Source: Maritimibacter sp. 55A14
GTDB taxonomy: Bacteria; Pseudomonadota; Alphaproteobacteria; Rhodobacterales; Rhodobacteraceae
Length of the DNA: 64,000 nt
Reading direction: 5' to 3'
NCBI RefSeq assembly: GCF_003122205.1
Contig: NZ_QEYE01000012.1
Coordinates: forward strand, 1 to 64,000
Shown here: piece by piece, positions 5,513-13,561 of the stretch
How the letters are laid out: the number at the start of each line of letters is the position of its first letter
How positions within the stretch are numbered: the first letter of the stretch is position 1
Position numbers and translations under genes: made by a program
The notes under the pieces: generated by a model
Told to the model about the DNA's origin: nothing
The model's database searches: none
Seen by the model: the letters and a program-made list of their open reading frames with translations, nothing else

Positions 5513-8002
5513 TCATCCGCATTTGCTGAAGCCGCAATCGGCGCAGGTCATGCAGCCTTCGATCATCCGCATCTCGTAGCTGCCGCAGCTCGAACAGGCC
5601 GGACCGCGCGGCAGGCCCGCGCCCGGCGCGGGGATGCCGTGCGGGTCGGATTTCAGCCCCGCCCCGGCGGCGTCGATGAAGCCGATGGCGATCAGGTGTT
5701 CCTCGATCACCCCGCCGATGGCCGCCAGGATCGAGGGGATGTATTTGCCCTGCACCCAGGCGCCGCCGCGCGGGTCGAAGACGGCTTTCAGTTCCTCCAC
5801 CACGAAGGACACGTCGCCGCCGCGCCGGAACACCGCCGAGATCATCCGCGTCAGCGCCACCGTCCAGGCGAAATGCTCCATGTTCTTGGAGTTGATGAAG
5901 ACCTCGAAGGGCCGGCGATGCCCGTTCACGATGATATCGTTGATGGTGATGTAGATCGCGTGTTCCGAGCCGGGCCACTTGATCTTGTAGGTCAGCCCGT
6001 CCAGCGCCTCGGGCCGGTCGAGCGGTTCGGAGATATAGACCACGTCGCCATGCGGGGTGGCGGGTACGGAGTCGCTTAGAGCGACGACCTCGCGCGGCGC
6101 TGCATCGTCGAGAAGGGCGGCAATCTCTACATCCAGAGCCTTTGCGAGCGCCAGGATTGTATCGGCTCCGGGGGTCTTGGTGCGCCTCTCCAGAATATCG
6201 GTGATGGCGCGCGGCTTCAGCCCGGCCTTCTTCGACAGCGCGGCTGCCTTCAATCGCTTTTTCTTCATCAGCGCGGAGAGGCGCGTGGCCAGGTCCGTGG
6301 GCTTCACCTCAGCCACGCTCAGCACGCTCCCCGTCACCGCGTTGGGGCGGTAGGTCGTGCAGCCCTTGCAACCCGAGTCCCAGGCCTGCATGTAGACGTC
6401 CTTGAACGCCTCGAAACCGATATCCTCGGGGCAGTTGATGGTCTTGGAGATCGACGAATCCACCCATTTCTGCGCCGCCGCCTGCATCTTCACATGCTCC
6501 AGCGGCGCCAGGGTCTGGGCGTTCACGAAATACTCCGGCAGTTCCAGGTCGCCGAATTTCTCGTGCCAGATCCGGACCGCGTAGTCTTCCACCTCCTCCT
6601 CGGTGCGGGAGCCGTCCTTCTGAAGCACCTTGCGGGTGTAGGTGTAGGCAAAGACCGGCTCGATCCCCGACGAGACATTGCCGGCATAGAGGCTGATCGT
6701 GCCGGTGGGCGCGATCGAGGTCAGCAGCGCGTTGCGGATGCCGTGCCGGGCGATGGCGTCGCGTACATCCGCATCCATATGGGTCAGCGATCCGCTGGCC
6801 AGGTATTTCTCCGCATCGAAGAGCGGGAACGCCCCCTTCTCGCGCGCCAGATCGGCCGAGGCCAGGTAGGCGCTGCGCGCCAGCCGCTTCAGCCAGGCCT
6901 CGGTCTGCGCCGCCGCCTCGTCGGAGCCATAGCGCAGCCCAAGCATCAGCAGCGCATCCGCCAGCCCGGTCACACCCAGCCCGATGCGCCGCTTGTTGCG
7001 CGCCTCCTCGGCCTGCTGCGGCAGCGGGAAGCGCGAGACATCCACGACATTGTCCATCATCCGCACCGCCACGCGCACCAGATCGTCGAGCGCATCGTCG
7101 TCCAGCGCGGCGGCCTCGCCGAACGGGTCAGTCACGAGCCGCGCCAGGTTGATCGAGCCCAGGAGGCAGGCGCCATAGGGCGGCAGGGGCTGCTCGCCAC
7201 AGGGGTTCGTGGCCGCGATCGTCTCGCAATAGGCCAGGTTGTTCATCGCGTTGATCCGGTCGATGAAGATCACGCCGGGCTCGGCATAATCGTAGGTCGC
7301 GCGCATGATCCGGTCCCACAGCACCCGCGCCTCGACCGTGTGATAGACCCGCCCGCCGAATGTCAGGTCCCATGATCCGTCGGCCTTCACCGCGTCCATG
7401 AAATCGTCCGTCACGAGAACCGAGAGGTTGAACATCCGCAGCCGCGCCGCGTCCTGCTTGGCGGTGATGAAATCCTCGATATCGGGATGGTCGCAGCGCA
7501 TCGTTGCCATCATTGCCCCGCGGCGCGACCCCGCCGACATGATGGTGCGGCACATAGCGTCCCACACATCCATGAAGGACAGCGGCCCCGACGCATCCGC
7601 CGCCACGCCATGCACCGGCGCGCCCTTGGGACGGATGGTGGAGAAGTCGTAGCCGATTCCACCACCCTGCTGCATGGTCAGCGCGGCTTCCTTGAGCATG
7701 TCGAAAATGCCCGCCATGCTGTCGGGCACCGTGCCCATCACGAAACAGTTGAAGAGCGTGACGTCCCGCGCCGTTCCCGCGCCCGCGGTGATCCGGCCCG
7801 CCGGCAGGAAGCGGAAATCCTCCAGCGCGGCATAGAAGCGGTCTTCCCACTCCTCCGGCGCGTCCTCGACAACGGCCAGGGCCCGCGCGATCCGCCGCCA
7901 GCTATCCTCGACCGTCTGGTCGACCGGAGTGCCGTCCGCCTGCTTCAGGCGGTATTTCATATCCCATATCTGCTCGGCGATGGGGGCGGAAAATGCAGTC
8001 AT
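5513..8002 (-). CDS. nrdJ: Adenosylcobalamin-dependent ribonucleotide reductase (class II) with internal XRE HTH
   Basis: An 829-residue class II reductase making deoxyribonucleotides with a B12-generated thiyl radical. The N-terminal part holds the redox cysteine (FNCFVMGTVPDS); the barrel holds the radical cysteine in NPCGEQPLPPYGAC and the phosphate-binding IAPTGTIS; the barrel ends at GCKGCTTYRPNA. The C-terminal part has the TSCPD-like domain (HAIYITINDIIVNGHRRPF) and a cysteine-rich tail CSSCGSYEMR...CADCGFSKCG. Between barrel and TSCPD domain, residues about 568-640, lies an additional segment resembling a lambda-repressor/XRE helix-turn-helix (see separate entry). The start at 8002 is chosen over 8017 because it has an AGGAT site and gives the usual MTAFSAPIA N-terminus. 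Followed after 13 bases by fosX. No B12 riboswitch is visible upstream. Confidence 0.93.
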   Translation of the reverse strand: MTAFSAPIAEQIWDMKYRLKQADGTPVDQTVEDSWRRIARALAVVEDAPEEWEDRFYAALEDFRFLPAGRITAGAGTARDVTLFNCFVMGTVPDSMAGIFDMLKEAALTMQQGGGIGYDFSTIRPKGAPVHGVAADASGPLSFMDVWDAMCRTIMSAGSRRGAMMATMRCDHPDIEDFITAKQDAARLRMFNLSVLVTDDFMDAVKADGSWDLTFGGRVYHTVEARVLWDRIMRATYDYAEPGVIFIDRINAMNNLAYCETIAATNPCGEQPLPPYGACLLGSINLARLVTDPFGEAAALDDDALDDLVRVAVRMMDNVVDVSRFPLPQQAEEARNKRRIGLGVTGLADALLMLGLRYGSDEAAAQTEAWLKRLARSAYLASADLAREKGAFPLFDAEKYLASGSLTHMDADVRDAIARHGIRNALLTSIAPTGTISLYAGNVSSGIEPVFAYTYTRKVLQKDGSRTEEEVEDYAVRIWHEKFGDLELPEYFVNAQTLAPLEHVKMQAAAQKWVDSSISKTINCPEDIGFEAFKDVYMQAWDSGCKGCTTYRPNAVTGSVLSVAEVKPTDLATRLSALMKKKRLKAAALSKKAGLKPRAITDILERRTKTPGADTILALAKALDVEIAALLDDAAPREVVALSDSVPATPHGDVVYISEPLDRPEALDGLTYKIKWPGSEHAIYITINDIIVNGHRRPFEVFINSKNMEHFAWTVALTRMISAVFRRGGDVSFVVEELKAVFDPRGGAWVQGKYIPSILAAIGGVIEEHLIAIGFIDAAGAGLKSDPHGIPAPGAGLPRGPACSSCGSYEMRMIEGCMTCADCGFSKCG
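6083..6300 (-). other. XRE/lambda-repressor-like HTH segment inserted in nrdJ
   Basis: This stretch encodes LATRLSALMKKKRLKAA, ALSKKAGLKPRAITDILERR and then TPGADTILALAKALDVEIA. The pattern of a basic first helix, a short helix with SKKAGL, a recognition-like helix (KPRAITDILE) and a final helix ending in DVEIAALL is that of XRE family helix-turn-helix domains. It sits in frame between the catalytic barrel and the TSCPD domain, a position where the class II enzymes I know have only a short linker. Its DNA looks less GC-biased than the flanks. Whether it binds DNA is not known. Confidence 0.7.
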
Positions 8003-8113
8003 CCAGCAGATCCTCATAGGCGTCAGAGAAGGTCTTCCAGACTAAGCTTTTCAAGGTGCAAGCGCAAGAAATAGGTCGCCGTCGCACCGTCCTACCATTA
8101 TATTGATTCCTTG

Positions 8114-12304: not shown

Positions 12305-13561
12305 TCAGGCCAGCAGCGCGTCCTCGAAGGGAAAGCGCGACAGCAGTTCCACCCCGGTCTCGGTGACCAGGACCTGCTGTTCCAGTTTCACGCCCTCGGC
12401 GCCGCCGTCCTCGCCAATATAGCTTTCCACGCAGAGCGTCATGCCGGGGCGGATTTCCCCGTCATAGCCGGCATCCGGGAAATCGCCGCGATGGTACAGA
12501 TATGGGTACTCCCCCGTCATGCCCACGCCATGCGCCGAGAGGTAGTAACGGTTGGCGTGGTATTTCTCCGGAATGTTCCAGGCCGCATCGGCATAGTCGC
12601 GAAAGCTCATCCCCGGCGCCAGGATGCCCATGTTGTGATGCACCTGTTCATGCGCCAGCTTGTAAAGCTCGCGCTGTTGGGCTGACGGGCGACCGGGCCC
12701 GGAATGGAACGTTCGCGAGAAATCCGCGTAATAGCCGTGACACCCCACCACATCGGTATCGAGCGCGATCAGCTCGTCCGGTTCGATCACCTTGGGCGAG
12801 GCCTCCTGAAACCACGGGTTGGTGCGCGCGCCGGCATTGAGCAGCCGGGTTTCCACGTAATCGCCGTTCTGCGCGATCACCGACTGGTGCAGCACCGACC
12901 AGAGCTGCGTCTCGGTCAGTCCGGGGCGGATCGCATCGCGCAGATGGCCCACGGCGGTCTCGGTCGCCCGGAGCGAGGCGTTCACGCATTTCATCTCCTC
13001 CGGAGACTTGATCGCGCGAGCCATCTCCACCGGCTCCTGCGCATCGACCAGCGTCAGGCCCTGCGCCTGCAAGGCGAGTGCGGTGCCGGCGTTGAGCCGT
13101 TCCAGCCCGACGGTCGCGCCGCGGCCCACGAGCGTGTGGATCAGATCGGCCATTTCCGCCGCCCACGCGCGTTCGCGCTCGGCGATATGCGGCCCCGCGG
13201 CAACGAAACTGGCGGTCCTGGCAGGCCGCACCTCGTCCACTGTCTCGAACCCCGATGCCAGATGCAGGCAGCCTGTGAATTCAAAGAGGATGGAGCGCTC
13301 GGCGGTGAGCAGCAGGTAACGCGACGGCGCGTTGCGCATCGAAAAGACCTGCATGTTCCGAGTGCCGGTGGCATACCGGATATTAACCGGGTCGCTCAGG
13401 ATGACCGCGCCGATACCGCGCTGCGCCATTTCGTGGCGAACCCGCGCCTGCCGGTAACGGCGCACCGCCACAAGGTCTATGCCGGCGTCATCCGGCGCCC
13501 GGTCCAGCAGGGCGAGATTCTGCAAATCGCTGCGTTCGGCGTGCCAGTCCAGTTCGGCCAT
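12305..13561 (-). CDS. M24 family metallo-enzyme, DddP-like but lacking the DddP catalytic Asp
   Basis: A 418-residue pita-bread-fold protein with clear similarity to the DMSP lyase DddP over its full length, for example DPVNIRYATGTRNMQ, YVETRLLNAGARTNPWFQE and ALDTDVVGCHGYYADFSRT. The six DddP metal ligands align with Asp268, Asp270, Asp280, His344, Glu379 and Glu394, and the active-site tyrosine aligns with Tyr339. However the residue aligned with the DddP catalytic base (Asp377 in the Ruegeria lacuscaerulensis enzyme, as I recall it) is Gly350 in HGVGMTGEYP. So it is probably a DddP paralogue with another substrate, such as a peptide or creatinase-like C-N substrate, rather than a DMSP lyase. 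The start at 13561 has an AGGAG site; a start nine codons upstream lacks one. Confidence 0.75.
   Translation of the reverse strand: MAELDWHAERSDLQNLALLDRAPDDAGIDLVAVRRYRQARVRHEMAQRGIGAVILSDPVNIRYATGTRNMQVFSMRNAPSRYLLLTAERSILFEFTGCLHLASGFETVDEVRPARTASFVAAGPHIAERERAWAAEMADLIHTLVGRGATVGLERLNAGTALALQAQGLTLVDAQEPVEMARAIKSPEEMKCVNASLRATETAVGHLRDAIRPGLTETQLWSVLHQSVIAQNGDYVETRLLNAGARTNPWFQEASPKVIEPDELIALDTDVVGCHGYYADFSRTFHSGPGRPSAQQRELYKLAHEQVHHNMGILAPGMSFRDYADAAWNIPEKYHANRYYLSAHGVGMTGEYPYLYHRGDFPDAGYDGEIRPGMTLCVESYIGEDGGAEGVKLEQQVLVTETGVELLSRFPFEDALLA

Follow-up and report, generated by a model that had tools for sequence, protein, structure and literature searches.

The M24-family gene at positions 12305-13561 of the window (the whole stretch of DNA analyzed, 64,000 nucleotides) encodes a protein related to the DMSP lyase DddP, in which glycine occupies the column of the proposed catalytic base. 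We found that it represents a real DddP-related subfamily, as the sequence-only reading had surmised: Gly350 comes with co-changed residues, the protein falls in a separate clade, and the genome has its own DddP besides. Judging from sequence, this subfamily probably runs a different reaction. The reading that we favor, roughly an even call, is that the protein is a dinuclear-metal enzyme in the DddP-like part of M24 whose substrate is of the betaine type and is neither DMSP nor a peptide.

Gene, fold, and active-site residues

The gene and the codons discussed below are as follows.

12305-13561, minus strand: M24-family gene for the Gly-type DddP-like protein (418 amino acids; coordinates include the stop codon)
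13334-13336, minus strand: Arg76 codon, arginine in 74 of 74 Gly-type rows
12758-12760, minus strand: codon of metal ligand Asp268 (DddP Asp295)
12752-12754, minus strand: codon of metal ligand Asp270, the extra ligand of the DTD motif (DddP Asp297)
12722-12724, minus strand: codon of metal ligand Asp280 (DddP Asp307)
12545-12547, minus strand: Tyr339 codon (DddP Tyr366)
12530-12532, minus strand: codon of metal ligand His344 (DddP His371)
12512-12514, minus strand: Gly350 codon, at the column of the proposed DddP base Asp377
12425-12427, minus strand: codon of metal ligand Glu379 (DddP Glu406)
12380-12382, minus strand: codon of metal ligand Glu394 (DddP Glu421)

The minus-strand frame opens with an ATG at 13561 and closes with a TGA stop at 12307-12305; this ATG is supported because orthologues share the MAELDWHAERSDL-like N terminus. 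Both M24B Xaa-Pro peptidase domains are present (PF00557 Peptidase_M24, 109 bits; PF01321 Creatinase_N, 40.5 bits).

Residues 30-417 align in phmmer with RlDddP (4rzy; E 5.9e-72). The available part of the 2014 structure paper gives the RdDddP ligands as Asp295, Asp297, Asp307, His371, Glu406, and Glu421, and favors Asp377 as the base, with Tyr366 as the alternative (PMC4108388). The sequence-only reading had all six ligands and the tyrosine intact and glycine in place of the base, and our alignment with DddP and M24 peptidases bore this out: D268, D270, D280, H344, E379, E394, and Y339 match the RdDddP residues, and Gly350 falls on Asp377 without a gap (HGVGMTGEYP in the target, HGVGLCDEWP in DddP). 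The extra aspartate of the DTD motif, Asp270, is missing from the five other aligned M24 rows. In two M24 sequences, 3q6d and L021 (the latter from a related genome), the Gly350 column holds the histidine of HGxGLxxHExP; we take this residue to be the catalytic histidine of M24B Xaa-Pro peptidases. Among the other M24 rows, L003 has its histidine one column off, and L004, L005, and L022 are without the HGxGLxxHExP motif.

The predicted model of the target (mean pLDDT, 89.7) matches four DddP entries at the fold level with Z scores of 46.9 to 47.1 (rmsd, 1.8 to 1.9 Å over 399 residues; 33 to 34% identity). The next-best fold is an Xaa-Pro dipeptidase (Z 35.2), and creatinase (1chm, Z 33.6) and ectoine hydrolase follow at Z 33.6 to 33.8 with 18 to 22% identity. 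RlDddP and RdDddP are also the best solved relatives by sequence, with E values of 4.3e-72 to 1.9e-70; a proline dipeptidase comes next (3q6d, E 3.2e-15). By analogy, the target is probably homodimeric.

Its M24 fold with PF00557 and PF01321, the name of its relatives ("Xaa-Pro peptidase family protein"), and a family-5 (oligopeptide/nickel-type) binding-protein gene that adjoins in nine Pseudomonas loci would all suit an Xaa-Pro or related peptidase. We nevertheless consider a peptidase quite unlikely, because Gly350 and Phe251 align with histidines of 3q6d, because the DTD form of its metal site is that of DddP, and because RlDddP itself is described, in the accessible portion of a review, as having no measurable activity on valine-proline (PMC5395565).

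Residue signature and position in the family

Three of 156 matches were dropped for unreadable key positions, and residues were counted in 126 dereplicated relatives, which are related by descent, so that the counts are not independent events. At the base column these rows have Gly (74), Asp (46), Asn (4), or Val (2), with Gly over-represented because the named-genome scan used Gly-type peptide patterns and kept the best 80 of 582 matches. All 37 orthologues found among those best 80 of 582 (L050-L085 and L113; 65 to 86% identity) have Gly. All 126 rows retain the metal ligands, save that position 270 is Gly in three, and the equivalent of Tyr339 is present in every Gly row (74/74) and every Asp row (46/46). 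In one Asp-type subgroup (L012, L037, L038, and L039), DCG stands for DTD and the sixth ligand is missing; the six-ligand site is thus not universal in DddP-like proteins.

Further columns changed along with the base. Gly rows have Arg76 (74/74), Tyr or Phe at 235 (74/74) and at 278 (74/74), and Phe or Tyr at 73 (73/74), whereas Asp rows have His76 (38/46, with a gap in 4), Trp235 (46/46), Cys278 (40/46), and Trp73 (39/46), and Arg76 in none of the 46; an exception from outside the 126 rows is L162, an Asp-type plasmid protein with Arg76. The target fits the Gly-type group defined in this way, with Arg76, Tyr/Phe235, Tyr/Phe278, Gly350, and an intact six-ligand site. Another acid at the catalytic position would have spoken against the sequence-only reading; column statistics over the 126 rows revealed none, in that no column of residues 30-418 was Asp or Glu in ≥90% of Gly rows and ≤20% of Asp rows. 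The nearest polar candidate is residue 349, which is Thr, Ser, His, or Asn in 73 of 74 Gly rows. According to the available part of a review, the DMSP sulfur is bound in DddP by a Tyr and by a Trp for which no residue number is given (PMC5395565); if, as we assume, this is the Trp of the DddP NMQLW motif, its counterpart in the target is Phe73.

These changes bear on whether the protein is still a DMSP (or DMSOP) lyase that relies on Tyr339 or another base, with Gly350 only lowering or altering the rate. Such activity would fit the intact metal ligands and Tyr366 equivalent, the naming of Tyr366 as an alternative base in the 2014 paper (PMC4108388, seen in part), and the cleavage of both DMSP and DMSOP by DddP enzymes reported in the portion of PMC10686828 available to us. 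We regard it as decidedly unlikely, since a full DddP is already encoded in this genome, since further columns changed along with the Asp, since Phe73 stands at the NMQLW Trp, and since orthologues extend beyond marine alphaproteobacteria (to Burkholderia, Nocardiopsis, and a Clostridiales MAG).

The NCBIfam DddP model (NF043017) gave the target 312.7 bits, under its cut-off of 600; the genome's own DddP (L002; G000 contig 14, 49184-50368), with HGVGLCDEWP, scored 876.1 bits. A Gly-type protein and a full-strength DddP thus coexist in one genome. Scores with the same model were 371 to 425 for three Asp-type non-DddP relatives, 317 to 372 for four Gly-type proteins, and 312 for one Val-type protein. 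It had been suggested that automated annotation could call the target a DMSP lyase, which now appears unlikely: the score is far below the cut-off, and plasmid relatives are named as peptidases (13 of the 13 annotated among the 40 plasmid relatives listed, all <60% identical, are "Xaa-Pro peptidase family protein"). NCBIfam ectoine-hydrolase (DoeA/EutD) models gave the target only 41 to 47 bits against cut-offs of 575 to 613.

The target lies in a 48-row clade of the tree (SH-aLRT, 99), with Roseovarius pacificus and R. halotolerans as its nearest neighbors and apart from RlDddP and RdDddP, which sit together in a small clade among the Asp types. Five changes are needed to account for the four residue labels on this tree (least possible, 3; shuffled mean, 44), which was built by a quick method, with an unsure root and very long outgroup branches; one Gly row, L124, joined the outgroups. 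The word "replaced" in the earlier reading suggests that the Asp was lost from DddP, an order of events that the tree does not support: DddP makes up just a small clade among the Asp types, and the change between Asp and Gly could have run either way. Six Gly rows out of the 74, including five from Bacillaceae, group with the Asp types, so the Gly state may have arisen more than once. All five Bacillaceae Gly copies in the tree are on the Asp side.

Within the target's own family, 221 of 394 genomes (drawn from a larger group) have a match at E ≤ 1e-60, and an orthologue that is at least 70% identical occurs in only 6 of the 394, in one case spread over two frames. The named collection holds at least 37 orthologues at 65 to 86% identity, among the best 80 of 582 matches, in Roseobacter-, Hyphomicrobiales-, and Rhodospirillales-type genomes, Halomonas, Burkholderia, Nocardiopsis, other gammaproteobacterial genomes, and MAGs labeled Actinomycetota and Clostridiales.

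The target gene is under purifying selection, with dN/dS of about 0.1: values against four orthologues were 0.12, 0.14, 0.15, and 0.08, the last from a pair whose synonymous sites approach saturation (dS 1.8). Its features are not those expected of a decayed DddP: orthologues share the Gly, dN/dS is low, and the genome has a separate, full DddP. We rejected loss of function on the strength of dN/dS of about 0.1 together with the kept metal ligands. A catalytically dead paralogue, whether regulatory or being lost, would fit the absence of the proposed base and the broken copies in G317, one of the six orthologue-bearing family genomes, and in G007; yet with that dN/dS and with the metal ligands kept in all Gly rows, we consider it highly improbable. 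In G317, the orthologue is split over two frames at contig 1, 3879258-3880489 (L029), and the G007 relative lies in pieces, with internal stops, at contig 11, 1619-2505 (L020); the sequence of these two broken copies suggests local gene decay.

Gene neighborhoods and a possible betaine link

In the window, the target lies between slyX/hisS and dnaE. Neighbors tested were hisS, a second tRNA-synt_His protein, hisG, slyX, dnaE, and a xanthine-dehydrogenase-like pair, and none of the nine window proteins scanned pointed to betaines. Elsewhere in the window, the minus-strand gene at 5513-8017 encodes a ribonucleotide reductase-like protein in which a match to a Cro/C1-type HTH domain (residues 579-637) separates the barrel from the TSCPD domain.

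Neighbors of other Gly-type genes were counted by family searches on all ORFs of the flanks, several of which are short; BetaineABC seeds were left out of evidence, as they also match other ABC transporters. Of the 37 orthologue loci (among the best 80 of 582 matches), 14 have a divergent LysR gene at most 200 bp away, five have a gene for an OpuAC-type binding protein no farther than 2.5 kb off (Burkholderia, Nocardiopsis, Halomonas, a Hyphomicrobiales MAG, and a Clostridiales MAG), and two have an MTTB gene directly upstream (Aliiruegeria and Oricola, the latter also with a DAO/GCV_T protein directly downstream); in 30 of the 37, some with short flanks, the 2.5 kb around the gene holds neither OpuAC nor MTTB. 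OpuAC ORFs numbered six in 175 kb near orthologues, two of them at a single locus (L078) with two Gly-type genes, versus one in 457 kb farther off. Although the OpuAC partner is similar to glycine-betaine-binding proteins, this does not fix the substrate of the enzyme. The target's own genome has five MTTB genes; two of them, 69% and 78% identical to the orthologue-neighbor MTTBs, lie on contigs other than the window's.

Of 30 further Gly loci outside Bacillaceae, 28 have a HalD-like gene directly alongside and 20 an OpuAC gene no more than 2.5 kb away; betaine-type neighbors occur at a minority of orthologue loci and at most loci of a sister group. The HalD-like gene is conserved beside the M24 gene (L090, L114, and 26 further Gly loci) in Halomonas, Pseudomonas, Paraburkholderia, and relatives; that of L090 belongs to PF23169, and the match of the HalD-like partner to halogenase B is weak (5.6e-4). 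Six Bacillaceae Gly loci (L086, L088, L089, L091, L099, and L110) had no OpuAC, MTTB, HalD, or LysR match. Seven Asp-type loci had no OpuAC, MTTB, or HalD match, a weak control since the seeds came from Gly-type loci.

On a Sinorhizobium plasmid, the Gly-type gene is surrounded by genes for MTTB, an FAD oxidoreductase, an isochorismatase-family protein, a betaine ABC transporter, and an MR/MLE protein. The isochorismatase-family gene, which directly follows the Gly-type gene on Sinorhizobium and Shinella plasmids and just precedes it in a Clostridiales MAG, points to another candidate activity: C-N hydrolysis of a non-quaternary guanidino or ureido (creatine-like) compound, feeding an isochorismatase-type amidohydrolase and sarcosine oxidation. 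Sarcosine oxidase genes in the Shinella stretch would agree with this, as would creatinase and ectoine hydrolase among the next-best folds (Z 33.6 to 33.8). We think it rather unlikely, given how far the target falls below the ectoine-hydrolase cut-offs and given that the isochorismatase seed had no match in the 37 orthologue loci, although Pfam finds a short one in L085.

The MR/MLE neighbors gave no lead to a substrate: that of Halomonas best matches galactonate dehydratase (4.2e-31), and that of Sinorhizobium (L159 14540-15664) matches 2pgw (E 1.2e-251), deposited as muconate cycloisomerase. The betaine context may help to name the Sinorhizobium protein.

Asp-type relatives also lie near such genes: a HalD-like gene adjoins a Pseudomonas plasmid copy that also has a betaine ABC transporter some 7 kb away, and two Asp-type plasmid copies are near ring-hydroxylating (Rieske-type) oxygenase genes. 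The betaine link is therefore not peculiar to the Gly type and may belong to the wider DddP-like family; if so, DMSP, itself betaine-like, would be a special case.

Proposed function and comparison with known systems

On the betaine-type reading, the Gly type would help to break down quaternary or methylated ammonium compounds. The metals and Arg76, which may line the partner subunit's active site, would hold the substrate carboxylate, and Gly350 would leave room for a head group bulkier than dimethylsulfonium. A metal-bound hydroxide, aided by Tyr339 or the polar residue 349, might then break a C-N bond in the manner of creatinase or ectoine hydrolase; elimination driven by a Tyr is our second choice and seems less likely. 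More broadly, and tentatively, somewhat short of an even call, the Gly proteins may form an unrecognized enzyme family, represented in Pseudomonadota, Actinomycetota, and Bacillota, in which the DddP metal site serves a new purpose: cleaving a quaternary-ammonium betaine or the compound left by its partial demethylation. DddP would then be a small sulfonium-specialized offshoot of a broad onium-cleaving family.

Our literature search, which covered titles and abstract openings and lay mostly outside subscription journals, returned no description of the Gly-type group and no assay of a Gly-type enzyme; nor is the group described in the available portions of PMC4108388, PMC5395565, and PMC10686828 or in the reference list of PMC12478193. 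As stated in the accessible part of PMC10686828, dddP is the commonest bacterial DMSP-cleavage gene in ocean surveys. Gly-type look-alikes with intact ligands should be left out of dddP counts, and a handful of signature residues can now help to separate them from DddP. If the Gly group does degrade betaines, it would fill an unassigned step of nitrogen-osmolyte turnover and hint at the origin of DddP.

Creatinase and ectoine hydrolase act on small nitrogenous compounds. The target has a fold like theirs, at 18 to 22% identity, but is far under the DoeA cut-offs. With M24B Xaa-Pro peptidases (prolidase and aminopeptidase P), it has Peptidase_M24, Creatinase_N, and the fold in common; it differs from them in Gly350 and Phe251 at the 3q6d His columns, in the extra DTD aspartate, and in a Z score of at most 35.2.

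Its Gly-type relatives in Halomonas, Pseudomonas, Paraburkholderia, and Sinorhizobium (about 46 to 55% identical) share Arg76, Tyr/Phe235, Tyr/Phe278, and Gly350 with it; they mostly lie beside HalD-like and/or betaine- or Dpp-type transporter genes, whereas the window gene stands alone. With DddP (RlDddP 4rzy, 4s00, and 4s01; RdDddP 4b28; NF043017), the target has in common the fold, the six-ligand DTD site, and the Tyr366 equivalent, but it is without Asp377, has Phe for the NMQLW Trp and Arg76, Tyr235, and Tyr278 for His, Trp, and Cys, and falls under the family cut-off and outside the DddP clade.
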